Shown: piece by piece, positions 10,670 to 45,604 of the stretch | How the letters are laid out: every line of letters begins with the position of its first letter | Numbering within the stretch: position 1 is the stretch's first letter | NCBI RefSeq assembly: GCF_026151205.1 | Contig: NC_087076.1 | Coordinates: 9,526,902-9,586,901 of the forward strand | DNA: 60,000 nt | From: Bolinopsis microptera | Lineage: Eukaryota; Ctenophora; Tentaculata; Lobata; Bolinopsidae | Direction: 5' to 3' | Made by a program: the position numbers and the translations under genes | Notes under the pieces: generated by a model | What the model was told of the DNA's origin: nothing | What the model saw: the letters and a program-made list of their open reading frames with translations, nothing else | The model's database searches: none

Positions 10670-10672
10670 TTA

Positions 10673-13617: not shown

Positions 13618-14500
13618 CTGGCGTAAAATACATCATCTTCATGATAAATACAATTTACAAATGGATATATACTATCTCTCTACTGGGCACTAATGACCAA
13701 AATGCGATTCCATCCAGCAAAATGTAAAGTGCTTATTATCAGGAAAAACCTCTTTATCTCCTCCATTCGCATACAATCTGATGGCACTCCTCTTGTGTAT
13801 GTAGAAGTTAGAAAAAGATTTGGAGTCGATTTACTCATACCTAAGTGGAATATCAGTGCGACAGAATTTTATACTAATGCCTGCCACCTACCTTGGATGT
13901 CAGAAGAGTATTGGCCATATGTCATTGATCAAAACGTCGCCGGGCGCTTTACCTCTCCCTGGTCGTTATCCAATTCGAAAATTGTTCCATAATCTGGCGC
14001 CCTTTGTAATAAATTCACTTAGTTGATAAATTTAGAAATCCTCCAAAAGAGACTATTAAATGGACTCTGTCTGAAGAGGGCCGCAGTTTATCCACCTAGC
14101 AATATGTCAAAAAGTGCAAGCTTGTCGACAATCATCTCCCTTTGTCTCAAAAGTTTGACTTGAATGATCTTATTTTTTTCCACAAAGTTCCCTTAACAAT
14201 TAATTCCTGGATCACTGCCTCACTAATCTCTCTTTATATCAGGCACTTCTCGACGAAGACTTGCCACCTCGACAGTCTGGTCTATTGAGTCCCATAATTT
14301 TACCTAAGAAGTCAAATTCACACACCACATGTACCTCAAATAGCCCACTGGCAAAATCCATTTTTCTACAAACCCATATACTGTGGAATGGGTGGGGTGG
14401 GGGACTCCCTTACAGTAAGTACAATTGTGTCTACTATCTTTTCAAGCTATCACTAAGCAGTTATGGAAATTCTATTGATAGTGAAAACAACATCTAGCCT
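13618..14500 (+). mobile_element. LINE RT C-terminal part, copy 0 (cut by array edge)
   Basis: The array starts here inside the LINE, just after the position of the YADD motif in other copies. The frame at 13,693 reads MRFHPAKCKVL, the post-YADD region of APE-type LINE RTs, and continues with thumb and C-terminal sequence in shifting frames (LPRRSLSNS-type blocks, then PIILPKKSNSHTTCTSN). It ends where the short 3' region begins. Frameshifts look like read errors. Confidence 0.7.
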
Positions 14501-15019
14501 AGCTCTTTGCTCCCCATAATATTATTTTTTGTTTTATTAATTTTTTTTTATCTACTTCCTATACCTTTCAACATCAAACACACATCACCCGCACACCTTC
14601 TCACACATAATGACCATTTCAGACCTGTATCTAATGTATCTGGAAGTTGACGTATTGAAAATACAAATTTGGACTCTATATCCACAGTTATTCACCATAT
14701 TATGTTGTTATGAATATTTCTTCATAAATTTTTGGATTTAGCATTAATTCGATGTAATTCCAATTACTGCGGACATAGTTTCACTATGTGTTTTACTCGT
14801 GGTTTGGGTCCCATCAATTTTACAGATGGTGGCGATATTTTGAACGATTCCTATTTTTATATTCTCTATTCTGAACTCTGTAAAATTTGAAAAGTTTTTT
14901 TAATAAAAAGAAATAAAATAAACTTAACTTAACAAAATCAAAACAAAATCAAACGAAACGAAACTAATTTGAAACAAAAATGAATACAAGAACAAAAACT
15001 AAATTAAAATAATTCCTAA

Positions 15020-15420
15020 ACGATTTCTTACAGCATAAACTTTGTTGGTGTCCTACAGTACTTATGAAGTTCCCTCTCTCCATTTAATAGATTGCCATCA
15101 TTATTTAAAATAATATAAAGTTTTTCAGTAAGCAGAGATGACAATCTTTCGTACCCCCTTGTACGATAGCAGTTTATTTTTTCCAGATATTTATATGTGT
15201 TTGTTTATCTTTCAACTCCATATTTTTCTAAATACTCCGCTGATATCGTAGCTTCATCGAGTTTGAAGACTTGTGTGAACTGAAAACGGTCTTAAAGTGA
15301 TTTCATCAGCCACAATAATTCTCTTTCTTTCATTTTCCACTGCATATTTGCTTCAAATATCACTGATGCTTCCAGCAGTGGTCCGTTCAGGGCACAATTC
15401 CGCTTCTGCAATTGCACTTT
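15020..15420 (-). mobile_element. GIY-YIG coding end, copy 0
   Basis: On the - strand, the 3' end of a Penelope-type frame: an LCLTEKLYII-like block, LLNRRxEL and a terminal CRHxNKF motif, read across several frameshifts. It faces the LINE of the same half-unit tail-to-tail across an A/T-rich, AACGA-repeat spacer (about 14,890-15,010). Confidence 0.55.
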
Positions 15421-15870
15421 TCGATTAATTGTAGGTTCTTTCTGAGCTTGGTGTCTGGTGCCGCTAAGATGGATTCCTTACGTGGTAGGCACTGTTAAGA
15501 TAGCTTAATTGTTTTCTGTTGAACATTTGTGAAATTGGTTCCTCTGGAATCTTTGTCCTAGTAATCGGAGGAACGTGCTAAGTTGTTTGTTTACATTTGC
15601 AGAAGCCGAAATGTGCCCACTGAACCGACAATGCCTGGAACAGCAGTGATATATGAAGCAACTATTGCAGTGGTAAACTGAAAGAAAAGCACTTCCCAGA
15701 GACACCAATTTCACAAAAATTTTCAACAAAAACACAATTAAGCTACCATACAGTTGCCCTACCCAACGAAGGAATCCGTCTTAGAGAGCACCAGCCCAAG
15801 CTCAGAAAGAACCACTATTAAACGAAAACGTGAAATTGCAGAAAGCCGAAATTAGCCCACTGAACGGCAA
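15360..15870. repeat. Alpha symmetry centre 1
   Basis: The arms of the palindrome meet at 15,622 around an unpaired loop of about 140 nt (about 15,555-15,695). The loop carries a third, + strand copy of a 90-bp GIY-YIG module whose frame reads CPLNGQCLEQ; the two arm copies flank it. GTTGAAC at 15,518 pairs with 15,727. Confidence 0.75.
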
Positions 15871-16260
15871 TGCCCTGGAACAGCTGTGATATATGAAGGC
15901 AACGAATTGCAGTGGAAAATTTGAAAAGAAAGAGCACAAATATATTGGCTTACTGAAAAAACACTTTAGACCCTTACAGTTTCACACACAACTCTTTTCC
16001 AACTCGAGAACCTACGAATTCAGACGAGCTTTCAAGAAAATATGGAGTTGAAAGATAAACATTCACCAAATAACTTATCTTGAAATAATCAAACCCATGC
16101 CATTCCGTACCAAGTGGGTACAAAGATTGTCATCTCTGCCTTACTGAAAAACTTTATATTATTTTAAATAAAAGATGGCAATCTATTAAATAGGAGGAGG
16201 GAACTCATAAGTAAATGTAGGCACACAACAATTTATGCTGAAGAAAAGCTTTTAGGCATT
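15600..16260 (+). mobile_element. GIY-YIG coding end, copy 1
   Basis: Two successive GIY-YIG entry modules (one in the loop, one at about 15,840) are followed by KYIGL (15,937), ELSxKIW-like, KDCHLCLTEKLYII (16,110-16,160) and the NRRRELISKC end near 16,220. The family is the GIY-YIG nuclease of Penelope-like elements; the Glu of the TEK block is the expected catalytic acid. No single frame stays open. Confidence 0.6.
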
Positions 16261-16769
16261 TTAATTTAATTTTAGTTTTTGTTCTTGTATTTCATTTTTT
16301 CGTTTCAAATTGCGTTTCCGTTTCGTTTGATTTTTATTATGATTAGATAAGTTAAGGTTTAATTTATTTTTATTATTAAATACTTTCCAAATTTATACAG
16401 AGAAACAGCAATAGATGAAAAATAAAAATAGAAACTACAAAATATCGCCCCACATCTGTAAAATAGTAGATGGCACCCAAACACGTAACACATAGGAACT
16501 ATGTCCCGCAGTAACTTGGACCCATTAATCGAATTAACTCTAAATCCAAAAATTTATGAAAACTATATAAACACCAAACAATCATGTGAATAACTGTGGA
16601 TATAGATTATCAAAAATTTGTATTTCAATACGTCAAAATTTCCAGATACATTCTAGATACAGGTCTGAAATGGTCATAAATGTCGAGAATGTGTGGCGGT
16701 GAAGTGTGATATGAGTTGAAATATAGGAAGGTAGATTAAAAAATTAATAAAACAAAAAATAATAATAAT

Positions 16770-19640
16770 ATGGTAGCAAAGAGACTAGCCTAGACTGTTT
16801 TACACTATCCTATAAACAATTCCATAGATCTTAGTGACCTCAGCTTTGAAAAGACTAGGTAAAACCACAATCTGTCTTACCTGTAAAGGAGTCCCTTCCA
16901 CATTATAGGGTTCTGTAAAAAATGATTTTGCCAGTGGGCTATAGAGTACATGTGGTGTGTGAATTCAGACTTAACTTAGGAAATAGATGACACAATAGAC
17001 AGACTGACGGAGTGGCAACGTCTTAGTCGAGAAGTGCCCTGATAAAAGAAGAGAATAGTGAGGCAAGTGATACAGGAATTAAATTGTTAAGAACTTTGTG
17101 GAAAAAAATACGAACATTCAAGACAAACTTTTTGAGACAAAGGAGAATGTCACAAGCATGACTTTTAGAAATAATGCTCAGTGATAACTGCGCCCTCTTC
17201 CGACAGAAATCCATTTAATACTCTCTTTTGGAGACTTCCTAATTTATCAACTAAGTGATTTATTACAAGGGCCCAGATATGGAAACAATTTTCGAATTGG
17301 CTACAACCAGGGAGAGGATAAAGCGCCCGGCGACGTTTCTGAACAATGACAATATGCCATCTCTTTCTGCCCATACAAGTTGTTGGCAGGCCTTAGTATA
17401 AAATACTGGTCGCAACTGACTGATTCCAACTTAGCTTCAGGAGTAACATCGACTCCAAGGATCTTTTTCTAACTCTACATACACAAGAGGAAGAGCCAAC
17501 AAGATGTATGCAATGGAGGAGATAAAGATGGTTTTCCTGAAACATATAAGCACTTTACATTTGCTGGATGGAAACGCATTTGTTTCTTAGGTGCCCATCA
17601 GAGATATAGTCTATATCCATTGTACATTAGTATTATCAGAAGATAATGTATTTTACGCCAGATTTTTGTATCAACGGCAACAAAACAAATCAGTATAATC
17701 GAAAGGCCAAAGAAGAATATCATTGATAAACAATACAAAAAGTAAGGGACCAAAATAGAGCCCTGGGGGACACCAGGAATTTAACAGAGAGGGTAGATGA
17801 CATCTCCTTACAAAAACCACACTTTGGTAACGGCCTTGAGGTACTTGGCAAGAAATTTGAGAATGTACCATCAATGTAATATAAGGTCTTTAGCTAATGA
17901 AGAAGATATCATGATTAACAGAATCAAATGGCTTAGCAAATCAAAATACACAACATGATTGATAATTTTTGTTAAGAGACAATGCCAGCTATCACAAAAG
18001 TCAAACCGTATATTGGATGTGCATGACTTGTGCTCTAGAAAACCATGCTGCCTGGATCAAGAAGGTAATTGTCAAAGAAAGCAGATTACGATTAACAATG
18101 CGCACAAAAACTTACACAATGACAAAACAAGTAAGGATATTGGGCTTAGTTTTTTTCAACCTCACTTTTCTTACCTTTCTTAAATATTGGGACAACATTT
18201 GCAAGTTTTCCATTTTTGTGGAATGTACCTGTTGTACAGATCCACGAAAAATGCATGTTAGAGGGTAAGCTAAACCTCCCGGAACAATTTTTGAGAATAT
18301 ACCTGTATGCCATCCTGGGTCCTGGGCTTTATATGAATTAATATTTGAAAGGAAGCTTAACGAACTCCGATTATCGAAGTCAATATCAAAATCACCATCA
18401 TTTACAAAGGAGATATCAGTGTCATAAAGTGATGGATCCGAAAACTGGTTTAAAAGAAAGAATGGAAAAGTTCAAGCTTGAGCTTTTGGTTTGAACCGAA
18501 GCTGATCCAGAATAACTAACACAATTAGGAACCGGCAGGAGTTAGATTTATACTTAACATGTGACCAAAACTTCTTAGTTTTTAGCGCTGGATCATCAAT
18601 ATTGAAAAGATGTCCTCTTATTTTGGCTGTGAAAGCCTCTAAAAATCTTACCTAGTAACAAAACTTTTAACACATCAGAAATAAACAGAAATTTTAAAAT
18701 TTAGATCTGAGTCTATCCATTTACGGCATGAAGAAAAAAGTTCACTAGCGGACCACGGGGTGGAAACTCGAATTAATATTACTTTAAGAATAATGTATAA
18801 CACCTAAATCATAATGCAGTCCTTAACAAACTTCCAAGACGAAATCAGATCTAGCATTCTAGGACTTGCCAATTTCGAGCATAATTCCCGATAATCATGT
18901 CCCAGTTTGTGCTTTCTTATAATTATAGATTTTATACTTTAGATTTTTCTTGCTGAAAAAGGAGCTTTTTAATTGAAAAAGAGACCAGGAAAAATGATCA
19001 ATTTCACACGGAATGAGGATCACAGAAATTCAAGTTATCGATGTGTTATCATAATTACTGAGAAGAATGTCTAATGTATTACCACTTCGTTTATGGTGGA
19101 GTGTGAATCAACTGGGAGAGAGAAAGATCACAGAAGAGAAACTATAAGGATTGCTCAATAGGTACGGTAACTGGAAGAGATAGCCAGTTCTGAATGGGGG
19201 GAATTAAAAATCACCAATAACATAGATATTAAGGGGGATTCATTTTGGAAACTAGCTTGCGAATATAACAAACTATGACATCATGATTAGGTAACCCAAG
19301 AGTGTTCCTACTCTATAACAAAGTACAGATTACAATACTCACTTTGTTAGAAAAGCCAATTTTAACGGCAGCTATTCTGCACTACTAACTGGTTAGTCGG
19401 TTGTAGTGGCAACGAGATCAACCGAACGCCAAAAGAAACACCACATCCATTTTCCCTAAACTTTTTTAGGGTTATTAGGAATCTTGAGATGAGTCTTTCC
19501 TCGTGCGGTCATTGCCGGAAGATTTCATATTGAGAAGAAGGAAAGAAGTTCGTTGCAAGAATAATATATATGAGCCAAGTCTCATTTAGGGCGAAATTAG
19601 GTCAGGATGCTGCTCTATGTAGCATAGGATTGAAAGTTCG
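16770..19640 (-). mobile_element. APE-RT LINE coding region, copy 1
   Basis: Reading leftward: APE endonuclease pieces (an NETWLK-like start near 19,580; GGVLLAVR at about 19,430; an IGDFNLP-equivalent near 19,225), then the RT palm and SPGxYFGPLLFVLFIND at 17,700-17,775, and the C-terminal SLQKRVLNGFLSEEG block (17,165-17,374). The element is of the jockey/CR1 kind. No frame longer than about 80 codons survives, consistent with one indel every few tens of bases. Confidence 0.75.
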
Positions 19641-20939
19641 GACAATCTTATGTACCATCAAGAAGGGGATGGAGAGCTTAGTTACTGAAAGGAAATAAGA
19701 CCTTGGACATTTGGTAAGTATAGATAGGAGTTTGGACCTGGAGTTAAGCCATAGAAGTATTAACAAGAGTTTACAAAAGAAAGTTAAGAGAGAACACCCA
19801 AAGAATGAAAAAAGAGACGAGACGCCAGAGGCGGGCTGGAATACTAGACGAGCAATCATCTTACGCGTGGTGGAGATGAACAATTCATATAAACCTGAGA
19901 AGATAATTAACAAAGAAAAGTTTGATGTGGAGCAAGGCACAAATGGTATAAGATAACCGTGGGCTGTCAAGGAGTAAGAGAATGAATATTAGAATCTAGT
20001 GTAATACGGTTGTTCATGACTAGTCGTGAGGAAGAATTGGCGAAGGTAAGTCATGATGGAGAGAATAGAAGAGAAACAAAGGATTATGATAATTGTAGGT
20101 GATTTTGGGGTGCATGGAGAATTAAATTGTAAATTTAGTTAGGTATAAACTGTTGAATGTATATGTGCATTTCGACTGTGTACGAGGCCTATTGCATGCA
20201 AAAAAGACCTATTCTAAGTCCTAAACGATTCATGTCTAACATATGGAAAAATGGGCATGACCGAATGAACCTGACATAGGAGGCCTAACAATGAGACACG
20301 AATAATCCGCAGATTTGATATGAGTTTTAATTTTAGGCGCAACGTCTAAATCAAAATAATAAATGAAATAAAAAGATCAAAGATTAAATTCCCAGAAGAA
20401 TATTAACAACCCTTACAAACTGAGTTCGTTTACAACCAAACTTAAGCCAAGTGAACAGTAAACCAACTCCTCTCATGTTGATATGAAGCCAATCAAGTAT
20501 AGAAGTTCATAACATGAACTAAAGTCTCGAGATAAAAAGTTGAGAAACATTCAAACCACGCAATTATTCTTTAGCAAAAGTCTTTCAGTAGATTGTTAAA
20601 ATCATCTAGAACATTCCTTTCTATGTAGGAATATAAACACTAATAGGAAGACGAACAAGGGACAATATAATTGCAGCGGAAATAACTGCTTCGTGGTGTC
20701 AATTAAATCAGTCAGAAACTCCTAAAGTAACAGAATCCCATACTTAGAATTTTTAATGTCAATTAGTACCCCAACACTCAATCTAAATGTTATCAATATC
20801 GACCAAGCTTCTGCAGGCAGAATGAGTTTTATGAAAAATGATGAAAGGAGCTTGTCAGGAAAAACAGGAATTTATTAAATTAAATACGTTATTCTGACAC
20901 TGATGATTCATTTGCATGAAACTCTGAAATGTAGAATCG

Positions 20940-22075
20940 TTGTTTTCATTATATATATATATATATATATCTATATAGATATAATAGTATATATATATAT
21001 ATATATATAAATCTATATTAAATTTTAAACTTGACGAAATTTCTCCGGCAACGGGGATCTAGAAAGAAAACAACACCGAAAATCGACCTCAAAATGACCT
21101 CTGTGATGCAAACCCACTCGCAAATGATTGAAACCTCGACCATTTTTAGCAGGTTGAAGAAAATGGATAGGAAAAAAGGCTATAGCATTCTTAGAATTTT
21201 GATTTAGGCTTAGATTTTTATAATTAACGTCCGGAAAGTAGGTTAAATAAACGTTCAAATAATGGCGTTTTTAAGCAAAGGTTTACTGCGCTGTTGCGTA
21301 GCAACTAAAAATGCACGTGCGCGAGCAACCACAGATTAACAAACGCGCGTTGATAAGCAGTATGCTACTTCATAAATCAAAATAGCTCCACATTTACGCT
21401 CACGCTATGAACTCTATATAACTTTGTTTGTGATGGTATTTTTATGCGTAAAAAGTACCCGTTTTGGGAATCCGAATACTAACAACGCTGTCGACATAAA
21501 TGGAATTTATCTAACAATGGCGACAGCGATTGTATATACGAATTCCCAAAACGATACTTTTTACCGCATCAAAATACCAATCACAAACAAAGTTTTATAA
21601 GAAGGTCCATAGCGTGAGCGTAAAAGTGACTAGTTTAGAAATAAATGACGTACATACAGCATAACAACGCGCGATGTTAATCTGTGGTTGCACGCGCACG
21701 TGCATTATTAACGTTGCTACGCAACAGCGCAGTAAAACCCTAGCTAAGATAACGCCATAATCTAACGATTATTTAACCTCACTTCCGACGTTAATTATAA
21801 AAAATCGAAAGCCTAAATCAAAATTCCTAAGAATGCCTATAGCCTATCCTATCCTTTTCTACAACCCTGCTAAAAATGGCGAGGTTTCAACTCCATTTGC
21901 GAGCTGGGTTTGGCATCACCAAGGGGTCAATTTGAGGTCGATTTTCGTGTTTTTTCTGTCTATGTCCCCCGTTGCCGGGGAAATTTTCTCAAGTTTAAAA
22001 TAAAATATATATATATATATATAAATATATATAACATATATATATATATATATATACATATATAATATTATTAAT
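20940..22075. repeat. Beta symmetry centre 1: palindromic core between AT microsatellites
   Basis: (AT)n tracts at 20,949-21,010 and 22,002-22,070 bracket a core of about 980 bp whose halves are inverted copies centred on 21,507. CGCTGTCG (21,486) pairs with CGACAGCG (21,521-21,528) around an asymmetric 27-nt loop containing GGAATTTATCTAACAATGG. Arm landmarks are CCCCGGCAACGGGG, GTTGCGTAGCAAC and GCACGTGCGCGAGC. No coding capacity is seen. Confidence 0.85.
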
Positions 22076-23379
22076 GACACAACGATTCTACAAACTCCAG
22101 AGTTTCATGCAAATGCAATCAACAGTGTCAGAATAACTTATTAAATTAATTAAATCCCATGTTTTCCTTACAAGCTCCTTCCATCATTTTCAATAAAACC
22201 ATGCAGCTGCAGAGCTGACGATGTTGGGAAAAAAATTAATATTGGAGTGTTGGTACTAATGACATAAACATTCTAAAGTATGGGGTTCAGATCCTATAGG
22301 AGTACTTTCTGAATTAATTGACACTACTACAGTTATTTCCGCTGCAAATATAAATGTCAAAGTTGATCTTCCTATTATAGTGTTTTATATTCCTACAAAA
22401 GCAAAGAATGTTCTAATTTTAACAATCTACTTAAGAACTTATGCCCTAAAGAATATTGCGTGTTTTCCAAGACTGTTTCTCAAACTTTTTAACTCGAGAC
22501 TTAGAACATGTAATAAACTTCTATACCATGATTGGATTCATCTCAACATGAGAGGAGTATGTTTACTGTCCACTTGCTTTAGTTTGTTGTAAACGAACAC
22601 AGTTTTTGAAGGTTGTAAATAATCTTCTGGGAATTAAATCTTGACTTTTCTTTCAATTAATATTTTGATTAAGACGTTGCGCTAAAAATAAAACTCAAAC
22701 AAATCTCGATTTCATCTTTTTCTCAAATTTATGCCTCCTATTTCAGAACATTCCGTCACTTGCCCATTTTTCCATATTTAGACAAAGAAATCGTTAGACT
22801 TAGAATAGGTCTTTTTGCATGCAAAAGGCCTCGTACACAGTCAAGAAATGCACATATACCAATATCAAGCACTTTATACCCTAACAAAAATTACACATTT
22901 AAATCTCCATGCAACCCCACACATCAACTACAACTTATCATAATCATATGTTCTCTTCTATTCTCACATCATGACTTACCTTCTCCAATTCTTTCTCCTC
23001 CACACTAGGCCATGAACACCGTAATTCCCCCCTAGATTCTAATATTCATTCCTCTCTACTCCTTGACAGCCCCCACTTATCTAATACCATTTCTTGCTTG
23101 CTCCCACATCAAACTGTTCTTGTAATTATCCTCCTCATGGTTTATAAGAAATTTCTCTCCAGGAAAGATGAATAGAGTCAAGTATTCCAGCCGCCTCAGG
23201 CGTCTAGTATCTTTATTCATCTTTGGGTTTTTCTCTCTTAACTTTTTTTGAGAATAACTCTTGTAATCTTTATGCATACTTCCAGTCCCAACTCCCTATC
23301 TATACATCTACCAAAATTCCAAGGTCTTATTCCTTTCAGTAACCTAAGCACCTCCCATCCCCTTCTTGATAGGTAATAA

Positions 23380-26210
23380 GTTTCCGAACTTCAATCCTTT
23401 GCTAACATAGACAGCCTGACATAATTGCCCTAAATAGACTTGGCTCAAAAAATCTATATCTAGGCAACGAATCATTCCCTCTTCTCAATAGACATCTTCC
23501 GCAATGACCGCACCGAGAAAGACTCTCCCAGAAGGTTAAAGGAGATCCTAAAAACCCTAAAAAAGTATAGGGAAAATGGAGTGGTGTTCTTTGGCTATTT
23601 CGGTCTGATCTACGATGCCACTACACCCGACTACCATTTAGCCAAGGTCAGAAATGCTTGCCGTTAAAATTGCTTTTCCAAACAAAGAGATAATTGTAAT
23701 CTGTACTTGTTTATAGAGTAGGAACTCTTGGGTTACCTAATCATGATGTCATAGTAGTTATATACGCAAGCTAGTTTTCCAAAAGAATCCCCCCTAAAAT
23801 CTATGTTATTGGAGATTTTTAAACTCCCCCATACAGACTGCTATCTTCATCCAGTACCGTACCTATGAGCAAACCTTCATAGATTCTTCAGTGATCTTTC
23901 TCTCCTCCAGTTGATCACATCAACCCACCCCATAAAAGTGGTAAACAGTATCATTCTTCTCAGTAATTATGATAACACAATCGATAACTTAATGTCTGTG
24001 ACCCTCATTCCGTGTGCAAATCTGATCATTTTCCGTCACTTTTTCAATTAAAAGCTCCTATCCCGCAAGAAAACTCCTAAACGTAAAACTATAATTATAA
24101 GAAAGCAAACTGACATGGAATTAATCGTGGAATATGCTCGATTAATTGGCAAGTCCTAGAATGCCTAGATCTGAATTCGTCTTGGAAGTTAGTTTTAAAG
24201 ACTGCATTATGAATATATTGATATACATTATTCCTAAAGAACTATTAAATCAGAGATTCAACCCCGTGGTTCGATAGTGAACATTTTCTTCATGCCGTAA
24301 AAAAGGATAGACTCAGATCTAATTTAAAAATTCTGGTTTCTATTTCTGATGAGTTAAGTTTGTTACTAGCCTGTAAAGATTTTTAAGAGGCTTTCATCTC
24401 CAAATAAGAGACAATCTTTTCAATAGTGATGATCCAGCGCTAATAACGAAGAAGTTTTTGGTCACAGTTTAATAATCAATCTAACTCCTGCCAATTCCTA
24501 ATTGTGTTAGTTATTCTGGACAGCTTCGTTTCAACCCAAAGGCTCAAGCGAACTTTTCAATTCTTTCTTTTAGAACCAGTTTATCGGATCCTTTCACTTA
24601 TGACACTGATATCTCCTATGACAAAGATGTTGATTTTATATAGACTACGATTCATCGGATGTTCGTATGCTCTTTCCAAATATTAATTCAATAAAGCCCA
24701 AGGGACCAGAAATGGCATACACGGTAAAATTCTCAAAAATTGTTCCGTAGGTTAGCATACCCTCTAACCTCATTTTTCCGTGATCTACAACAGCGGCAAC
24801 AATCACAAGAAATGAAACTTGCAAATGTTGTCCCAATATTAAGAAAGGTAAGAAAAATGAGGTTGAAAACTATAGACCAATATCCCTTACTTGTTTATCA
24901 TGAAAGTTTTGACGCATTGTTAAACGTAAACTGCTTTCTTTGAACAAGTACCCTTCTGATCCCAGGCAGCGATGGTTTATCTAGAGCAACAAGTCATGCA
25001 CAACCAATATGGTTGACTTTTGTGATAGCCTGCATTGTCTCTTAACAAAACATATCAATCATTTTGTGTATTTTGATTTTCTAAGGCATTTGATTCTGTA
25101 AATCATGAATCCTTCTTCATAAGCTAAAGACCTTATATAACATTGACGGAACAAACTTCACAAATTTCTAACCAATAACCTTCCAAGGCCGTTACCAAAG
25201 AGTGGTTTTGGTATGATATCCAACTACCCTCTCAGTTAATTCTGGTTCCCCTATGGCTCTCAATCTTGGTCCCTACTTTTTGTATTGTTTATCATGATAT
25301 TCCTCTTGCCTTTCGGATAATCTGATATTGGTTTGTATCCGATGATAACAAAAAATCTGGTCGTAAAACATTCATCTTCTAGATAATACGTAATTACCAA
25401 TGATATAGACTATCCTCTGACTGGGCACAAAGAAACAAAATGCGATTCCATCCAGCAAAATTAAATTGCTTATTGTTTCAGGAAAACCATCTTTATCTCC
25501 TCCAATCGCATACAACTTGATGGCTCTCCTCTTGTGTATGTAAAGTAGAAAAAGATCTTGAGTCGATGTTTACTCCTAAGCTAAGTTAAATATCCAGTGC
25601 GACAGAATTTTATACTAAGCCTGCCACCAACTGTATGGTCAAGGATGGCCATTTTGTCATTGATCAGAAACGTCGCCGGCGCTTTACCTCTCCCAGGTTC
25701 GTACCAATTCGAAAATTTGTTCCATAATTCTGTCGCCCATGTAATAAATCACTTATGATAAATTAGAAAGTCTCCAAAAAGCTATTAAATGATTCTGTCT
25801 GGAGAGGGCCGCAGTTATCCACCTGAGCAATATGTCAAAAAAGGCAAGCTTGTCGACAATTCTCCCATGTCTCAAAAGTTTGACATAATGATCTTATTTT
25901 TTCCACAAAGTTCATAACTAATTTAATTCCTGTATCACTGCCTCACTATCTCTCTTTATAAACAGGGCACTTCTCTACTAAGACGTAGCCACCTTGACAG
26001 TCCTGTCTATTGTGTCAACATTTTACCTAAGTTTACAGAATTCACACACCACATTACCGTCAAATACCCACTGCAAAATCATTTTTTCTACAAACCATAT
26101 ACTGTGGGTATGGACTCCTTTACAGTAAGACAGATTGTGTCTAACTATCATTTTCAAAGCTGAGGTCACCAAGCATCTATGGAATGTTTATTGGATGTGA
26201 AACAACAGTC
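23380..26210 (+). mobile_element. APE-RT LINE coding region, copy 2
   Basis: The best forward copy. The APE endonuclease spans about 23,390-24,060 (GGVLF near 23,578, IGDF at 23,806, SLSQLITSPTHKSGN around 23,900-23,945, then the SDHFPV end). Next come YNYKKAN-like linker blocks and the RT: VYFDF..KAFDSVNH at 25,063-25,110, a GPLLFVLFIND-like block around 25,265, the YADD position near 25,345, and thumb/C-terminal SLQKRAIKWILS. DNA nicking and target-primed reverse transcription are inferred from the family. Frames shift repeatedly. Confidence 0.78.
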
Positions 26211-26740
26211 CTAGCCTAGTCTCATTGCTCCCCATATTATTAATTTATTTTTGTTTATTAATTTTTTTACTACTTCCTATACTTTCACCATCAAATCCAC
26301 TTCACCCGCACACTTCACACACATTAATGACCATTTCAACCTGAATCTCATGTATCCTGGAATTTGACGTATTGAAATACAATATTGACTCTATATCCCA
26401 GTTATTCACCATGGATTTGTTTGTTATTAAATAGTTTTTCATAAATTTTTGGATTTAGATTAATTCGATGTAATGGGTCCAAGTTACTGCTGCCATAGTG
26501 TCACGATGTTTTACGTGTTTGGTTGCCCATCATATTTTTTACAGATGGGGCGATATTTTTGAACGATTCTATTTTATATTCATCTATTCTGTTACTTCTG
26601 TAAAATTTGTAAAAGTATTATAATAAAAAAAATAAAATTAACTTAACTTAACTAAATCAAAAACAAATATCAAACGAAACGAAACGAAATTGAAACGAAA
26701 ATGAAAATACAAAACAAAAACTAAACTTAAATAAAATTCC
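26210..26740. other. LINE 3' end and tail-to-tail spacer, copy 2
   Basis: The non-coding 3' region of the LINE ends in AATAAAATTAACTTAACTTAAC, a short-repeat tail as in CR1/RTE-like LINEs, then an AAACGAAACG simple repeat, then the end of the opposing GIY-YIG gene. The same arrangement occurs near 14,900, 16,300, 28,050, 38,370 and 39,800. Confidence 0.6.
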
Positions 26741-33840: not shown

Positions 33841-35139
33841 AACAACGATTCTACAAACGCAGATTTCATGCAAATGCAAGATCATCATTGTCAGAATAAC
33901 TTATAAATTAATAAATCCATGTTTACCTTACAAGCTCCTCATCATTTTCATAAAAACTCATGCACTCCAGATGCTACGAATTGAAAAAATATATTGAGTG
34001 TATTGGTACTAATGACATTAAACATTCTAATAGGGTTCATTCCTTAGAAGTATCTTACTGAATTAATTGACACCACTAAGACAGTTATTTCCCGCATGCA
34101 ATATAAATTGTCCAATGTTGTCTTCCTATTAAGTTTTATATTCCTACTTAGCAAAGATTCTAGATTTTTAACAATGCTACTTAAAACTTATTCCAAAGAA
34201 TAATTGCGTGTTTCCAAGACGTTGCCACAACTTTTTAACTCGAGACTTGTTAATCATGTATTTGAACTTCTATACAATGATTGGCTTCATCTCAACATTG
34301 AGAGGATAGTTTACTGTCCACTGGCTTAAGTTTGTTGTAAACGAACACAGTTTTGACAGGTTGTAATAATCTTCTGGGACGTTATATCTGTGATCTTTTC
34401 TTTCATTTAATATTTGATAAGACTGCCCTAAAATTAAAACTCAACAAATCTCTGATTTTAATCTTTTTTCCTCAATTTTATGCCTCCTATTTCAGGTACA
34501 TTCGGTCACTGCCCCATTTTTCCATATGTTAGACAATGAATCGTTTAGACTTAGAATAGTCTTTTTGATCAAAAGGCCTGCGTACACAGTCAAGAAATGC
34601 ACATATACTATAAACACGTTTATACCTAACAAAATTTACACATTTAATTCTCCATGCACTCCTCACACAACTACAATTATCATAATCATATTTTCTCTTC
34701 TATTCTCCTCATCATGACTTACCTTCGTCCCAATTCTTCTCTCCACGACTATTCCATGAACACCGTATTCCCCCTAGATTCTAAATATTCATTCCCTCTC
34801 TACTCCTTGACAGCCCACGTTTATCTTATACCATTTCTTGCTTGCTCCCACAACAAACTTAATCTTTGTAATTATCTCCTCATGGTTTATAAGATATGTC
34901 TTCTCCTGGTAAGAAAGAATAGAGTCAAGTATTCCACCCGCCTCAGGCGGTCCTAGTATCTTTATTCATTCTTTGGTTTTCTCTCTTAACTTTCTTTGAT
35001 CACACTTGTTAATCCTTCTATGCTTTCTCAGGTCCCAACTCCCCTATCTATACTCTACCAAAATGTTCCAAGCTTATCCTTTCAGTAAACTAAGCTCCCC
35101 CATCCCCTTCTAGAGTAATAAGATGTACCGAACTTCCAT

Positions 35140-37945
35140 TCCTTTGCTAAACATATGAGCACCTGACATAATTGCCCTCAATGCGACTGGCTCAAAAAAT
35201 CTATTTCTAGCACGAAATCTTTCCTTCTTCTCAATATGAAACTTCCCGCAATGACGCACGAGAAAGACTTCACCTCACGATCCTAATAACCCTAAAAAGT
35301 TAAGGGAAAATTGGGGTGGTGTTACTTTTGGCTGTTCGGTCTGATCTCGCTGCACTACAACCCGACACCAATAGCCTAGGTGCAAAATGCTTGCCGTTAA
35401 AATTGCTTTTCCTAAACAAAGAGAGTATTGTAATCTTACTTGTTTATAGATTAGGAACTCTTGGTTACCTTAATCATGAAGTCATATTAGTTATATTCGC
35501 AGCTAGTTTTCCAAAAGAAATCCCCTAAAATCTATGTATGGTGATTTTAATCTCCCCCATACCGATGCTATCTTCATCCAGTACCGGTACCTATTGAGCA
35601 ATCCTTCATAATTCTTGCATGATCTTTCTCTCTCCCATTGATCACAATCACCCACACATAAATGGTATACATTAGACATTCTTCTTCATAATTATGATAA
35701 CACAATCGAGTTAACGTGAAAGTCTGTATCCACCTATCCGTGTGCAAATCTGTCATTTCCTGTCACTTTTTCAATTACAAGCTCCTTTTACCCCCAAGAA
35801 AAACGCCTAAACGTAAAATCTATCTAATTAGAGAAAGCAAACTGGACATGATAATCGTGAATTATGCTCGATAATTGGCAAGTCCGTAGAATCCTATAAT
35901 CCTGATCTCTGAAGTTAGTTAAAGACTGATTGAAGAATTTAGTTGATATACATAATTACAAAAGGTAACTATTAAATCAAGTATTCAACCCCCGGGTTCG
36001 AATAGTGAACTTTTTTCTGTCATGCCGTAAAAGATAACTCAATCTAATTTAAAATTTCTGGTTCTATTTCTGATAGTTAAAGTTGTGTTTACTAGCCGTA
36101 AGATTTTAAGAGGCTTTTCATCATCCAAAATTAAGACAATCATTTCAATAGTGATGAGCCAGCTCTAAGTAACTAAGAAAGTTTTGGTCACATTTTAAGA
36201 TAAATCTAACTCCTGCCTATTCTAATTGTGTTAGCATTCTGGAGCAGCTCGTTCAAACCCAAAGCTCAAGCTGAACTTTTCAATTCTTTCTTTTATAACC
36301 AGTGATTTCGATCCTTCACTATGACACTGATATCTCCTATGTCAATGATGTTGATTTTGATATGACTTCGATCATCGGGATGTCGTAAGCTTCTTCAAAT
36401 ATTAATTCAAATAAAGCCCAGGACCAGATGGCCTACACGGTGAAAATTCTCAAAAATTGTTACCGTAGTTTAGCTTACCCCTAACATGCATTTTTCGTGA
36501 TCTTACAACAGCGCTACATCCACAAGAGATGGAAACTTGCAAATGTTTGTCCAATATTTAAGAAAGGTAAGAAAGTGAGGTTGAAACTATAGACCAATAT
36601 CCCTTTTACTTGTTTTTATCATGAAAGTTTGGAGCGCAGTTTAACGTAAACGCTTCTTTGACAAGTACCCTCTTGATCCCAGGCAGCAGTTTTTCTAGAG
36701 CACAAGCCATCTCAACCAATATGTTGACTTTGTGATAGCCTGCATTGTCTCTTAACGAAAAACATTTATCAATCATGTTGTGTATTTTGATTTTGCTAAG
36801 GCATTTGATTCTGTAAATCCATGATATCCTTCTCATAAGCTAAAGACCTATATAAACCAATTGATGGTAACACATCTCCAAAGTCTTACCAATTACCTTC
36901 AAGCCGTTTACAAAGAGTGTTATTGGTAATGAGATGTCATCTACCCTCTCAGTTTAATCTGGTCCCCCAGGCGCTATTCTTTGGTCCCTATACTTTTTGT
37001 ATTTTTATCAATGAATTTTCCTTCTTGCCTTTCGATAATACTTGATATTGTTTGTATCCGAAGATACAAAAAATCTGCGTAAAATACATCATCTTCTGAT
37101 ACTCCTAATTTACAAATGGAATAGACTATCTCTCTGACGTGGCACTAAGAAACAAAAAGCGAATCCATCCAGCAAAATGAAAAGTGCCTTATTGTTTCGA
37201 AAACCATCTTTATCTTCTCCATTCGCAACAATCTTGAAGGCTCTCCTTTGTGTATGTAAAAAAAAAAGAGTTAGAAAAATCTTGGAGTCGCTGTACTCCT
37301 AACTAATTGATAGTCAGTTGCGACAGAATTTATACAAGGCCAGCCAACAACTTGGTAGTTCAGAAGAGATGGCCATATTGTCATTTGATCAAAACGTCCC
37401 TGGCGCGTTTACCTCTCCCGGATCGTAGCCAATTCGAAAATGTTCCATAAATCCTTCGCCCTTGTAATAAATCACTTAGTGAAAAAGAGCAAGTCTTACC
37501 AAAAGAGAGCTAATTAAATGGATTCTGTCTGAAGAGGGCCGCATTTTATCCACCCGAGCAATATGTCAAAAAGTGCAAGCTTGTCGACATTCTCCCGTTG
37601 TCTCATAAGTTTGACTTGAATGAACTTATTTTTCCAAAAGTTCTTAACAATTTTAATCCTGTACACTTGCCTCACTTATCTCTCATTATATCAGGGCAAT
37701 TCTCTGACTAACGTTGCCACCTCGACAGTCTGTCTATTGTGTCATCAATTTTACCTAAGTTAAGCAGAATTCACACACTACATGTACCTCAAAGAGCCCA
37801 CTGCAAAATTTTTTTCTACAGAACCATATACTGTGGAAGACTCCCTTTACCAAGGTAAAGACAGATTGTGTCTACTAGTCCTTTTCAAAGCGAGTCATAA
37901 GCATCTATGAAATGTTATTGGATAGTAAACAACAGTCAAGCCTAG
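35140..37945 (+). mobile_element. APE-RT LINE coding region, copy 4
   Basis: The APE stretch includes GVVLLLAVRSDLAAL-like sequence at 35,316 and GAKCLPLKLLF; IGDFNLP-equivalent codons lie near 35,540. The RT contains VYFDFAKAFDSVN at 36,778-36,820, the clearest motif A in the array. The thumb and C-terminal part run to the TVEDSLYQGKD-like end near 37,860. An AAAAAAAAAGAG run near 37,258 is not in other copies. Confidence 0.77.
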
Positions 37946-38449
37946 TCTATTTGCTCCCCATATAATTATTATTTTGTTTTATTAATTTTTTATCTACCTT
38001 ACCCTATACTTTCAACATCATAGCACCCTTCTCCCGCAACACCTTCTCACACATTAATACCATTTCAGACCTGTATCTAATGTATCTGGAATTGACGTAT
38101 TGAAATACAAATTTTGACTCTATATCCACAGTTATTCACCATATTTGTTTTGTTTATTAAATAGTTTTCAATAAATTTTTGGATTTAGATTAATTCGATG
38201 TAATGGGTCCAATACTGCGGACATAGTTCACTATTGTACCGTGTTGGTCCCATCATATTTTACAGATGGGGCGATAATTTGAAACGATCTATTTTATATT
38301 CTCATTTGCTGAACTCTGTAAAATTTGAAAAGTATTTAATTAAAAAAATAAATTAACTTAACTTTAAACAAATCAAAAACAAAATCAAACAACGAAACGA
38401 AAATTGGAACGAAATGAATACAAAACAAAACTAAAATTAAAATAAAATT

Positions 38450-38870: not shown

Positions 38871-39320
38871 TTTAATTGTATTCTTTCTGAGCTTGTGTCT
38901 GGTTGCGCGCATAGAATGGATCCTACTTGGTAGCAACTGTATATACTGAATTGTGTTTCTGTTGAACATTTTGTGAAATTGTTGGCCTCAGGGGAAGGCT
39001 TGTCTATAATCGAGGAACTCTTGCCTATGTGTTTGTTTACAATGCAAAAGCGGAAATGTCCCACTGAACGGACAATGCTGAAGCAGCAGTGGATATATAA
39101 CAACCGATTGCAGTGGAAAAGAGAAAGAACGAGCACTCCACCAGAACAACCAATTTCACAAAAAGTTTCAACAGAACACAATTAAGCTATCATAAACATT
39201 CCTACCCAACGAGGATCCAACTTAGGCGAGCACCAGACACCAATCTCAGCACGCACCTACCGATACACTCGCAAGACCTGGCAATCATTCAGAAAGCCGA
39301 AATGTGCCCCCTGAACGACA
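38820..39320. repeat. Alpha symmetry centre 3
   Basis: Arms meet at 39,066 (GTTGAAC 38,961 against 39,166-39,172). The loop module is in the same orientation as at alpha 1 and alpha 2. Confidence 0.75.
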
Positions 39321-39735: not shown

Positions 39736-40219
39736 ATTTTAGTTTTTGTTCTTGTATTTAATTTATCGATTTCAAAATACGTTTCGTATCCGTTTGATTT
39801 TGTTTTTGATTTAGTAAGTTAAGTTAATTTTAATTATTTATTATAAATAACTTCAAATAGTTTACAGAGTACAGCATAAGAATATAAAATAAATCGTTTC
39901 AAAATATCGCCCCCATCAGTAAAATATATGGGCACCCAAACACTGTAACACAAAGTGAACTATGCGCAGTAAGCTTGGACCCATTAACATCGACTAATCT
40001 AATCCAAAAATGTATGAAAAACTATTTAATAACAACAAATCCATGGTGAATAACTGTGGATATTAGATCCAAAATTTGTATTTCACCAATAAGTCAAATT
40101 CCAGATACATTAGATACAGGTTCTAAATGGTCATTAATGTGTGAAAGTGTGCGGGTAATGTGATATGATTTAATTATAGGAAGGTAGATGAAAAAAATTA
40201 ATAAAACAAAATAATAATA

Positions 40220-43110
40220 ATATGTAGCAAAGAGACTAGGCTAGACAGTTTTTCACTATCCAATAAACATTTCCATCGATGCTTATGACCTCAGCTTTGA
40301 AAAGACTAGTAACCACAATCTGTCTTACCTGTACCGGAGTCATTCCACAGTATATGGGTTTTTCTGTATAAAAATGATTTTGCCAGGGGCTATTTGAGGT
40401 ACATGTTGGTGTGAATTCTGACTTAACTTAGTAAAATTGATTAACACAATAGACAGACTGACGAGGTGGCAACGTCTAGTCAGAAGTCCCTGAATATAAA
40501 GAGAATATGAGCAGTGATACAGGAATTAAATTGTAAGAACTTTGGAAAAAAATAAATCATTCAAGTCAAACTTTTGAGACAAAGGGAGAATGTCGACCAA
40601 GCTTGCCCTTTTTGAACATATTGCTCAGGTGGATAACTGCGGGCCCTCTTCAACAGAATCCATTTAATAGCTCTCTTTTGAGACTTACTAATATTATCAC
40701 CTAAGAATTTATTACAAGGGCGCCAGAATATGGAACAATTCGATTGCAACGAACCAGGAGAGGTAAAGCGCCCGCGACGTTTCTGAACAATGAACATATG
40801 GCCATCTCTTCAGACCATACCAATTGATGGCAGGAGGCCTTATAATAAATTCTGTCGCACGACATTCCAACGTTAGCTAGCTTAACATCGACCTCCAAGA
40901 TCTTTTTTCTACCTCTGACATAAACAAAGGAGAGCGCAGCAGATTGTAATGTGCGAATGAGGAGATAAAGAAGGTTTTCCGAAACAATAAGCACCTTTAC
41001 AATTTTGCAGGAGAATCGCATTTTGTATTCTTAGTGCCCAGTCAAGAGATATCCTATATCCATATTGTAAATTAGTATTATCAGAAGATGAATGTATTTT
41101 AACTGGCCAGATTTTTTGTATCTTCGGCAAAACAAAAACAATATCATATTATCCGAAAGGCCAGAGGAATATCAATGAAAAACAATACAAAAAAGTAAGG
41201 GACCACGAAATAAACCCTGGGACCAGAATTAACTGATAGGTAGATACACTCATTACCAATTAACCACTCTTTGGTAACGGCCTTGAAGGTAATTGTAAGA
41301 AATTTGAGAAGTGTACCATCAATGTTATATAAGGTCTTTAGCTTATGAAGACAGGATATCATGATTTACAGAATCAAATGCCTTACAAAAAAATCCAAAT
41401 ACACAACATGATTGATATTGTTTTCGTTAAGGACAATCCAGCTATCACAAAAGTCAACCATATTGGTTGTGCATGACTTGTGCTCTAGAAAACCATGCTG
41501 GCCTGATCAAGAATGGTACTTGTCAAAGAAACAGTTTACGATTAACAATGGCCTCAACAACTTTCATGACTAAACAAGTAAGGAAATTGGGCTATAGTTT
41601 TCACCTCACTTTTCTTACTTTCTTAAAGTATTGGGACAAGACATTTGCAAGTTTCCATTCTTGTGGACTGTAGCCGCTGTTGTAAGATCCCAACGAAAAA
41701 TGCATGTTAGAGGTCAGCTAAACCTACGGAACAATTTTTTGATAATTTTACCGTGAAGCCATCTGGTCCCTGTCTTTATTTGAATTAATATTTTGAAAGA
41801 AGCTTACGAACATCCCGATGAACAAGTCAATATCAAAGATCAACATCATTGACATAGGAGATACATTGTCATAAAGTGAAGGATCCGAAAACCTGGTTAT
41901 AAAAGCAAGAATGAAAAGTTCAGCTTTTTTATTGAGCTTTGATTGGAACCGAAGCTGTCCCGAAAAACTAACACAATTATGCATACGGCAGGATTTAGAT
42001 TTATACTTAACATGTGACCAAAACTTCCTTAGTATTAGCGCTGGAACATCACTATTGAAAAGATTGTCTCATATTTTGTGGCTGATGAAACCTCTTAAAA
42101 TCTTGACGCTAGTTACAAACCTTTAACTCCATCATAAATAGACCCAAGAAATTTTAAATTTAGATCTGATCCTACCTTTTTTTACGGCATGAAGAAAAAG
42201 AGTTCACTAACGTAACCACGGGGGTTGAAACTCTGATTTAAATAGTTTACTTTAGGAATATTTATCAACTAAATTCATAATGCAGTCTTTAACTAACATC
42301 CAAACAACAGGATCCTAGGCATTTTAGGACTTCTGCCAATTAATCGAGCATAATCACGATTAATCATGTCCCAGTTTGCTTTTTCCTTTAATTATTTATT
42401 TTACGTTTAGAGTTTTCCTTGCGGGAAAGGAGCTTTTAATTGAAAAAAGTGACAGAAAATGATCAGATTTGCACACGAATGAGGAATCACAGACATTCAA
42501 ATTATCGATTGTGTTGTATCATAATTACAGATAAGAATTCTAATGTATTACCACTTTTATGGTGGGTGATGTGATCACTGGAGAGAGAAATGTCACTGAA
42601 AGAATCTATAAGGATTGCACAATAGTACGGTAACTGATGAAATAGCCAGTTGTATGGGGGATATAAAATCACCAATAACATAGAATTTAGGGATTCTTTT
42701 TGGAAACTAGCTTGCGAAAATAAACTAACTATGACATTCAATGATTAGGTAACCCAAGAGTTTCCTCTCTATAACAAAGTACAGAGATTACAATACTCTC
42801 TTTGTTAGGACAAGCAATTTTTAAACGGCAAGCATTTCTTCTACCTAGGCAACCTGGAAGTCGGGCTGTAGTGGCCATCGAGATCAGACCGAACAGCCAA
42901 AATAACACCACCCTCCATATTTCCAAAAAAACTTTTTTAGGGTTATTAGACTTGAGGATGATCTTTCTCTGCCGGTCATTGCGTGAAGATTTCATAATTG
43001 AGAAGAAGAAAGATTTCGTTGCTAGAAATAGATTTTTATGAGCCAAGACTCATTTAGGGCAATTATGACAGTCTGCTTCTAATGTTAGCAAAGGATTGAA
43101 GTTTCAATCT
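40220..43110 (-). mobile_element. APE-RT LINE coding region, copy 5
   Basis: APE pieces: LARRNACRLKIACPNKESIVIS and REETLGLPNH (43,046-42,738); SFSDISLSSDHITHHKSGNTLEFLSVI (42,741-42,502). RT pieces: HKLKTLYNIDG (41,362) and the VPYFFVLFFIDIPLAFRII palm block (41,160-41,210). Post-YADD FSCKIVKVLIVSENLLYLL (41,021) and RRGRFTSPGS..SQKRAIKWIL (40,797) follow. Together they cover almost the whole protein in five overlapping frames. Confidence 0.78.
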
Positions 43111-44399
43111 TATACCCATCAAGAAGGGGAATGGGAGGAGCTTAGGTTTACTGAAAGAAATAAGACCTTGGACCATTTTGGTAGAAGTATAGATAGTGAG
43201 TTGGACTGGATTAAGCATGAAGGATTTACAAGAGTTATCATAAAAAGTTAAAGAGAAAACCCAAAGAATGAATAAAGATACTAACCCTAGGCGGCTGGAA
43301 TACTTCGACTCTATTCATCTTACCAGGGGAGAAGAACAATTCTATAAACCATGAGGAGATTAATTACAAAGAAAATTTTGATGGTTGGGAGCAAGCAAGA
43401 AATGGTATAAGATAACCGTGGGCTGTCAAGGGAGTAGAGAGAATGAATATTAGAATCTAGGGAATACGTGTTCTATGACCAGTCGTGGAGAGAAAGAAAT
43501 TGGAGAAAGGTAAGTCATGATGAGAGAATAGAATAGAAACATAAGATTATTAATAATTGTAGTTGAGTGTGGGGGTGCATGGAAGAATTAAAGTGTACAA
43601 ATTTTGTTATAGGTATAAACGTGTTTATATTAGAATGTGCATTCCTATGAACAGTGAACAGGCTTATGCATGCAAAAGACCTATTCAAAGCGAAAAAACG
43701 TTCATGTCTAATCATATGGACAAAATGGGCAGTGACCGAATTACCTGAAATAGGAGGCATAAAATTGAGAAAAAGATTAAATCAGAGATTTGTTTGAGTA
43801 TTTAATTTCTTAGGCGCAACGTCTTAATCTAAATATTAAAATAAAGAAAAGATCAAAGATTTAAATTCCCAGAAGATTATTTACAAGCCTGTCAAAACTG
43901 ACTGTGTTTCGTTTACAACAAACTTCAGTCCCAAGTACAGTAAAACCTACACCTCGTCATGTTGAATGAAGCCAATCATGTATAGAAGTTCATTACAGGA
44001 TCTAAAGTCTCGAAGTTAAAAAAGTTTGAAGAAACATCAAGGAACACACGCAATTATTCTTTATGTCATAAGTCTTTAAAGTAGATAGTTAAAAACAATA
44101 ACATTCTTTGCTATGAGAATATAAACACTTAATAGCAAGACACATTGGACCATTTAATTGCAGCGGGAAATAACTGCTTACGTGTGTCAATTAATTCAGT
44201 AAGATACTTCCTAAGAACTGAACCCCATACTAGAATGTTTAATGCATAGTACCAAACACTCAATATAATTTTTTTCATTATCGTCACTTCTGCAGCGAGA
44301 GTTTTATGAAAGTGATGAAGAGCTGTAAGGAAAACAATGGATTTATTAATTTAATAAGTTATTCTGACACTGATGATTGCATTGCATGAAACTCTGAGT

Positions 44400-45529
44400 T
44401 TGTAAATCTTAGTTTTCATATACAATATAAATAAATAATATATATATATATATATATATATAATGTATATATAAAGATTATATATATATATCTATATTAT
44501 ATTTAAACTTACGAAATTTCCCCGCAACGGGGAACATAAGAAAGAAAAAACACCGAAAATCACCTCGTAAAATGACCCTCTGGTGATGCCAAACCCACTC
44601 TCGCAAATGGAGTTGAAACCTCGCCATTTTGCCGGGTTGTAGAAAAAGATAGGAATAGGCTATAGCATTCTTAAAGTTTTGATTTAGGCTTTAGATTTTT
44701 TATAATATTAACGTCGGAAGTGAGGTTAAATAATCGGGTTAGAAAAATTGCGTTATTTAAGCAAAGGTTTACCGCGCTGTTTGCGTAGCAACGTTAAAAA
44801 GCACGTGCGCGAGCAACCACAGATTAACAACGCGCGTTGGTAATGCTGTAAAGTACGTCATAATTTCAAAACTAGCACACATTTAGCTCACGCTATGACA
44901 TCTTATACTTTGTTTGTGATTGTATTTTTGATGCGGTAAAAAGATCTGTTTGGGAATCCGAATACTACCACGCTGTCGACATAATGTAATTTATCTAACA
45001 ATGGGCGACAGCGTTGTTAGTATTCGGTTTCCCCAAAACGATACTTTATAAACGCAGCAATCAAAAATACCAATCACAAACAAAGTATAAGAAGTCATAG
45101 CGTGAGCGTACATTGTTAGCTAGTTTTGAAATTATGACGTAGCATACAGCAAACAACGCGCGTTTTAATCTGTGTTGCTCCGCGCACGTGCATTTTAACG
45201 TTTGCTACGCAACAGCGCAGTAACCTTAGCTTAAATAACGCCATTATTCTAACGACTTATTTAACCTCACTTCCGACGTTAATTATAAAAAATCTAAAGC
45301 CTAAATCAAAATTCTAAGAATTGCTATAGCCTATTCCTATCCTTATTTCTACAACCCTGCTAAAAATGGCGATGTTTCAACTCCATTTGCGAAGCTGGGT
45401 TTGCATCACCCAGAGTCATTTTTGAGGTACGATTTTCGGTGTTTTTTCTTCTATGTCCCCGATGCCGGGAAAATTTCGTCCAGTTTAAAAATATAATAAA
45501 GATAATATAATAAATATAATATATAGTAC

Positions 45530-45561
<32 letters not shown>

Positions 45562-45604
45562 AATATATAGTGAAAACAACGATTCTACAAACACGAGTTT
45601 CATA
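44400..45604. repeat. Beta symmetry centre 3 and right edge of array
   Basis: AT tracts at 44,410-44,500 and 45,483-45,570 flank the core centred on 44,992 (CGCTGTCG 44,971-44,978 against CGACAGCG 45,006-45,013). Array similarity stops at GAGTTTCAT (45,604), where other copies continue with GCAAATGCAA. From here the sequence is right-arm DNA. Confidence 0.82.

Follow-up and report, generated by a model that had tools for sequence, protein, structure and literature searches.

Closed, self-complementary DNA molecules are central to origin-dependent inverted-repeat amplification (ODIRA), described for the SUL1 system of yeast. According to the available text of two accounts, the ODIRA dogbone is a closed self-complementary molecule whose loops derive from short interrupted inverted repeats and which replicates into an inverted dimeric circle (PMC10766183, PMC4689423); the model's authors thought it unlikely that such intermediates would ever be detected in vivo (PMC4689423). 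Palindromic long reads arising from amplification or missed adapters are, in the available part of another report, known to enter assemblies and cause inverted duplications (PMC6218980). Here we analyse a 32-kb array of a palindromic 11.73-kb unit in the assembly of the ctenophore Bolinopsis microptera (GCF_026151205.1), lying in a 60,000-nucleotide stretch of contig NC_087076.1 (hereafter the window). Contigs of this assembly are abbreviated as C1, C5 and so forth, the window being C5:9526902-9586901. We hold with high confidence that the array is an assembly artefact here, a gap having probably been filled with an uncorrected PacBio continuous long read (CLR) of a closed molecule; as a chromosomal feature of this locus it is very probably not real. 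Its likeness to ODIRA lies in a closed self-complementary molecule with two different natural loops (alpha and beta), one of whose junctions falls at a short interrupted inverted repeat. However, alpha is a two-step junction, the content is ctenophore transposon DNA and the chromosomal inverted triplication of ODIRA is not seen here. Moreover, ODIRA involves a replication origin, an in vivo molecule and selection, which for the source molecule here would be putative. With gap-fill artefacts of the TGS-GapCloser class the locus shares a stretch full of raw errors set between clean contigs, the recurrence of its letters at several places and repeats in the flanks. It differs in that the pasted read would be an extreme multi-pass palindrome, able to bridge contigs of opposite orientation.

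Comparison of the window with itself by BLAST bore out the initial annotation of a palindromic 11.73-kb unit with six alternating symmetry centres, a spacing of about 5.86 kb and a fixed orientation for each loop type. The array is bounded at 13618-45603 and its centres lie near 15621, 21490, 27358, 33259, 39066 and 44994, giving spacings of 5869, 5868, 5901, 5807 and 5928. Loop alpha (~130-160 nt) occupies centres 1, 3 and 5 and loop beta (~26-28 nt) centres 2, 4 and 6, with orientation constant for alpha (3/3) and for beta (3/3). The symmetry is far above chance (kilobase-long matches, E = 0), yet the main arm-arm matches are merely 78-84% alike and the largest alignment, of 26 kb, contains 1,778 gap openings. 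The array and its loops (loop limits being approximate except for the second alpha loop) are as follows.

13618-45603, no strand: whole array, read as a pasted raw-read segment; left edge within a retrotransposon copy, right edge within the arm adjoining beta
15548-15695, + strand: alpha loop 1
27292-27425, + strand: alpha loop 2, R1 forward, jump to an inverted internal piece of R1 (~100 nt), jump to inverted R1
38982-39140, + strand: alpha loop 3
21479-21506, + strand: beta loop 1, a fold-back at the short interrupted inverted repeat CTGTCG...CGACAG
33245-33275, + strand: beta loop 2
44978-45008, + strand: beta loop 3

The bulk of each arm is a 4.49-kb retrotransposon without long terminal repeats (long interspersed nuclear element, LINE). 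In a clean copy from elsewhere in the genome, one frame of 1100 aa contains endonuclease and reverse transcriptase domains and another, of 460 aa, a GDSL-type domain. Over the parts that match, this copy is 98.2-99.7% identical to every one of 26 further clean copies fetched. In the array the LINE is inserted within a repeat, R1, and the rest of the arm is made up of an AT repeat and another repeat, R2. Genome searches (in which the matches listed are lower bounds) gave 61 matches to the joined R1 flanks, 36 of which cross the insertion point; many of these stop ~108 bp past it. Across the R1-LINE and LINE-R2 junctions, no clean match was found among 40 candidates scored for each. Set side by side, these two results count in favour of a raw-read gap fill. 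R1 is also found elsewhere as inverted pairs (e.g. C1:19292201-19294403 and C12:458329-460471), which may represent the terminal inverted repeats of a DNA transposon. Alignments to clean copies gave no support to the notion of R1 and R2 as natural fold-back elements whose arms are unequal. The parts of the arms (a0 to a5) are as follows.

13618-14909, - strand: LINE copy, arm a0, cut by the array edge
16365-20845, + strand: LINE copy, arm a1; the element's own frames lie on the opposite strand
22182-26631, - strand: LINE copy, arm a2
28090-32589, + strand: LINE copy, arm a3
33939-38350, - strand: LINE copy, arm a4
39831-44319, + strand: LINE copy, arm a5
15696-16364, + strand: R1 arm end, with clean copies elsewhere; five further R1 ends flank alpha loops likewise
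20846-21478, + strand: last ~108 bp of R1, AT repeat and R2 arm end; five further such ends flank beta loops, the last cut at 45603

Differences between the arms behave as read errors. The clean LINE copy served as a ruler to which the arms were aligned, R1 and R2 being treated with rulers of their own. All six arms depart from the clean LINE by 1.9-4.0% substitutions, 2.8-4.3% insertions and 3.5-4.7% deletions. Among 4,485 sites covered by five arms, 3209, 1048, 200, 23, 2 and 3 were altered in 0, 1, 2, 3, 4 and 5 arms respectively, compared with 3142.7, 1158.6, 170.7, 12.6, 0.5 and 0 expected under independence. Errors are thus nearly independent between arms; at four sites, where four or five arms carry an identical substitution, the arms truly differ from the ruler. 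Identical substitutions common to arm pairs numbered 19 over ten pairs, where 18.5 were expected. The excess of sites altered in just two arms is tied to strand: they numbered 122 over the four same-strand pairs (33, 33, 31 and 25) and 78 over the six opposite-strand pairs (13-15 in each of four neighbouring pairs, 10 and 12 in the two distant ones), as expected if error hot spots depend on the reading direction. A bias in the reading direction runs across both arm orientations: T>A outnumbers A>T by 264 to 44 and G>T outnumbers C>A by 100 to 31, G is deleted at 10.0% and C at 1.6%, and A>C against T>G is more weakly biased (83 to 56). Fixed differences between plus and minus arms comprise 18 LINE sites (17 deletions and one T>A in the reading direction), two R1 sites, both G deletions in the reading direction, and at most one R2 site per ruler, in three of six rulers. 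Beneath the noise the arms have no secure difference, which points to one strand having been read straight through all of them; their complementarity holds within the noise only. A multiple alignment of the arms had been tried for the same fixed strand differences and was replaced by the rulers, as indel noise blurs it; its strand-split columns numbered 4 against 4 for the best other split in R1, 1 against 7 in R2 and 49 against 48 in the LINE. In contrast, the longest match between the two flanks of the array, 97% alike, has just 13 gap openings over 5 kb; the single-molecule error pattern is confined to the array here.

The same noisy letters occur elsewhere in the genome. Window positions 14200-22980 have an exact copy at C5:15.25 Mb and another, in reverse orientation, at C13:16.11 Mb, and 100% matches at both places were also found for 13618-14900, 15700-21480, 20850-22140 and 26640-28080; the comparison of letters covers 14200-22980 and these searched pieces. 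Alpha centres occur in at least 21 places at seven sites and fall by score into 13 versions, six found at two or three places and seven at one. Copies on C9 and C1 have scores equal to versions at C5:15.25-15.36 Mb. The same letters are therefore present at no fewer than three of the seven sites, and probably at five. Among the matches listed for the array end (query 43600-47000), 100% is reached only at the window locus, and those on C11 reach 81-83%. The noisy-array stretches outside the window are as follows.

C5:15247518-15360462: the largest, 113 kb, containing N, with ten alpha centres at spacings of 11.65-11.9 kb
C13:16100802-16119769
C9:7655597-7668729
C7:13893701-13911609: 17.9 kb
C11:17866428-17874424: 8.0 kb
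C1:26058614-26060095

Within the largest of these, C5:15283501-15285500 reads N and the array spacing goes on at both sides.

The published assembly procedure offers a route for such a fill. The available text of the assembly paper describes PacBio CLR and high-fidelity (HiFi) libraries run on Sequel II for three species at >70x each, and for B. microptera a pipeline of wtdbg 2.4, HiRise, TGS-GapCloser 1.1.1, Purge Haplotigs and pilon (PMC10232365). From the assembler and the error rate, the B. microptera data would be of the CLR type. TGS-GapCloser, as far as its available description goes, picks the read segment between neighbouring scaftigs by alignment length and identity, relies on ~2 kb of alignment next to the gap and error-corrects the candidates (PMC7476103). 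We scanned 14.4 kb on the right and 15.1 kb on the left, of which 1.5 kb lies outside the window, upstream, for the array elements at E <= 0.001. Two alleles of one LINE fragment, 14 kb from the left and 9.5 kb from the right array edge, were matched; otherwise each flank had only a single match, of 45 nt and 78%, to R2. The flanks and likely anchors are as follows.

1-12497, + strand: left flank, an inverted copy of the right flank that runs on upstream of the window
45603-60000, - strand: right flank, matching in inverted orientation both the left flank and DNA upstream of the window
55123-55413 plus 56778-56847, + strand: LINE fragment in the right flank, likely right anchor, in phase with the array
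-560 to -192 relative to the window (C5 near 9526342-9526710): inverted allele of this fragment, likely left anchor

Both fragments are in phase with the array period of 11,730, with left offsets of 51 and 70 nt and right offsets of 102, 84 and 101 nt. Of the two right pieces, which are separated by a 1.36-kb insertion, the farther is shifted by 1,451-1,466 nt, as this insertion requires. A clean LINE piece beside C5:15.25 Mb is likewise in phase to 85-87 nt. The chance of a phase match within 100 nt is ~1.7% each. Extrapolation from repeat anchors to contig ends would yield this phasing, for which we see no biological reason.

Taken together, these data suggest the following course of events. 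Two inverted contigs, probably two haplotypes of one region, would have been scaffolded side by side, and the gap between them closed with a piece of uncorrected CLR sequence. The read would have matched both contigs through the alleles of the short LINE fragment, and its sequence between the two extrapolated contig ends would have been pasted in. It may itself derive from a closed molecule, in which natural fold-back loops at either end connected the two strands of a 5.86-kb piece of chromosome made up of nested transposons (R1, LINE, R2). On its way round this dumbbell, or round the inverted-dimer circle that it replicates into, a polymerase would read arm, alpha, complementary arm, beta and arm again, with loop orientation constant. 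The noise, the identity at other sites, the phase of the flank fragments, the published pipeline and the loop structure were all established directly. We infer that this tool made the join, extrapolating from distant anchors, that its correction was skipped or failed, that the read was of the CLR type and that a single read of a closed source molecule supplied the fill.

Several observations weigh against this reconstruction. Despite the correction step described for the tool and the use of pilon, the letters in the array are uncorrected, and neither this nor anchors 9.5-14 kb away fits the description of TGS-GapCloser. The array is known from assembled letters and not from the source read itself. 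At ruler site 4064 the neighbouring arms a3, a4 and a5 carry the same substitution, which is not clearly present in a1 and a2, although the alignments of these two are disturbed there and a substitution could be masked. The nearer half of the split LINE at the C5:15.25 site, past a 5.3-kb interruption, is out of phase, as the interruption would cause. That the C9 and C1 copies presumably carry the same letters is judged by equal scores and not by the letters, and the matching stretch at C5:15.28 Mb reads N in the part fetched. Three alpha versions, two of them from C7 and the third from C11, have no match at any other site, which leaves room for more than one read. Finally, the highest score in an adapter scan, considered below, fell at alpha loop 3.

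Next, we considered the source molecule. Compared with one clean genomic copy fetched of each repeat, both loops are turning points. At beta, clean R2 sequence runs through the loop on one side only, and the turn is made at CTGTCG...CGACAG with a 26-nt spacer; the fetched clean copy has CTGTAG, one base different. At alpha, the strand leaves R1, takes ~100 nt of inverted R1 and jumps to inverted R1, with microhomology of roughly 3-5 nt, as judged by eye, at each jump. Moreover, 9/9 near-complete alpha-loop matches at C5:15.25-15.36 Mb are in one orientation. Constant loop orientation fits a closed circle or its tandem product, contradicts a hairpin copied back over itself, and follows from the geometry of an ODIRA dogbone or inverted dimer. 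Together with the lack of a clear adapter and the 13 alpha versions, it suggests that a polymerase went round a closed dumbbell or an inverted-dimer circle. The initial annotation had proposed copying round such a molecule, and this part of it fits the fixed loop orientation, the lack of secure arm differences and the natural fold-back loops at both ends; its placement in the chromosome is not supported. A single read holding all 13 versions would be at least ~139 kb long (113 kb on C5, 17.9 kb on C7 and 8.0 kb on C11), and an unsplit read of this kind is what a closed, adapter-free molecule would yield. It is plausible that the source works like an ODIRA dogbone; that synthesis was primed at a nick is a guess.

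Whether that molecule existed in the animal is a question the placement artefact leaves untouched, since a natural extrachromosomal dumbbell or inverted-dimer circle formed by fork template switching, as in ODIRA, would specify the source and is compatible with it. Such an origin is a tentative possibility, in keeping with a beta turn at a short interrupted inverted repeat and an alpha made by two microhomology jumps, and dogbones with loops from such repeats are the ODIRA intermediate in the available accounts (PMC10766183, PMC4689423). However, the evidence may amount to one molecule, and a molecule formed in the laboratory, by strand switching while DNA was handled or the library prepared, would look identical. 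The fuller version, in which ODIRA-like template switching at short inverted repeats gave the animal a natural dumbbell of transposon DNA (or the corresponding inverted-dimer circle) that one polymerase, meeting no adapter, read round up to 13 times, we regard as doubtful. An array truly present in a chromosome, of the 11.7-kb unit, >100 kb long and perhaps at C5:15.25-15.36 Mb, would have supplied very long reads that were used there and, wrongly, elsewhere. The ten regularly spaced alpha centres of C5:15247518-15360462 and the 13 distinct alpha versions by score, three of them outside that stretch, are in its favour, and it could explain site 4064 being altered alike in three neighbouring arms. 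We nevertheless consider it unlikely, as neither LINE junction has a clean assembled match among the 40 candidates scored for each, despite a long-read assembly of >70x, the sharing of substitutions is not above chance once site 4064 is set aside and neighbouring opposite-strand arms are hardly more alike than distant ones. The recurrence of the same letters at several sites argues in the same direction, and the LINE piece beside C5:15.25 is in phase, as expected of a misplaced fill. A linear insert of >113 kb would also be unusual for a CLR library. The tandem array that the initial annotation implied for this chromosome is likewise left unsupported by the raw-read errors, the recurrence at unrelated places and the phasing to flank transposon fragments.

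Two further routes to the same geometry appear very improbable. A linear insert read back and forth through missed SMRTbell adapters would alternate in the same way, and missed adapters are given as a cause of palindromic reads in the available part of one report (PMC6218980). Both loops, however, match genomic sequence. When 299 chunks were scanned with adapter letters, the top score (28 of 90) was at alpha 3, but the other five of the six centres, including the two other alpha loops, scored 13-19, where the median over all chunks was 17. Missed adapters are thus effectively refuted for the adapter sequences tested. Just as remote is rolling-hairpin replication of a parvovirus-like virus, a self-copying hairpin or palindromes from whole-genome amplification, any of which also yields alternating inverted copies; amplified PacBio data contained reads with up to 15 palindromes, according to the available text (PMC6218980). 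A loop flips on each hairpin copying, whereas 6/6 loops in the window and 9/9 alpha matches on C5 are fixed, so that loop orientation already contradicts the rolling-hairpin reading. Moreover, viral genes would be expected where the content is a LINE and other repeats, and the available part of the assembly methods mentions no amplification (PMC10232365). The array shares with these palindromes the entry of palindromic long reads into an assembly, and differs from them in having no clear adapter, natural loops in one orientation and the same two turning points in 13 alpha versions. In the open-licence literature we found no description of self-priming palindromic reads or of ctenophore palindromes and arrays, which is not to claim that none is in print.

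If the gap-fill reading is right, a false 32-kb chromosomal structure, and probable others on C1, C5, C7, C9, C11 and C13, stand in a reference used for animal phylogeny and synteny, and gene or repeat annotation within the noisy-array stretches is to be distrusted. A multi-pass palindromic read can, on this evidence, be copied into several gaps and bridge oppositely oriented contigs. The array would then be a clue to an unusual molecule, though not as a chromosomal feature here. Were the source natural, raw CLR data sets may contain direct evidence of hairpin-capped DNA intermediates in animals, and such reads could offer a direct route to catching dogbone intermediates.

Lastly, we examined the flanks. 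Positions 1-12.5 kb and 45.6-54.9 kb are mutually inverted; they match in several pieces, each 88-99% alike, of which the longest has few gaps. Window positions 57800-60000 match C5:9523240-9525415 at 96%, so the inverted pair reaches at least C5:9523240 on one side and the window end on the other. The flanks differ in the way that two haplotypes of a region do, which makes a haplotype misjoin likely: probably both haplotypes were scaffolded next to each other in opposite orientation. Inverted duplication of some age is the less likely alternative. Present in the left arm only is a 258-bp insertion (4945-5202) bordered by the 9-bp target repeat ACAAATATT, with an empty site in the right arm. 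It includes a part (5012-5086) like the transfer RNA (tRNA) for serine, tRNA-Ser(CGA), and looks like a young tRNA-derived repeat. A 2.4-kb repeat insertion (7009-9418), also confined to the left arm, has at least 51 other matches listed, many near-identical, with one end common and the other variably truncated. It overlaps a 723-aa open frame (6961-9132), for which a Pfam search returned no family even at E 10. Inside the right-flank LINE fragment lies a palindromic fold-back element of 1.36 kb (55414-56777), 96% self-complementary and lacking from the other allele.

Two further observations concern repeats of the flanks. A tandem repeat with a period of ~64 bp occupies 691-1098 in the left flank and has its inverted counterpart at 53825-54240 in the right. 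The tRNA-like sequence also occurs elsewhere in head-to-tail arrays with a period of ~345 bp and orientation switching inside the array, in at least four places.

C10:17345370-17351031: tRNA-like array
C6:4579998-4583596: tRNA-like array
C7:8772209-8775865: tRNA-like array
C3:5726838-5731448: tRNA-like array

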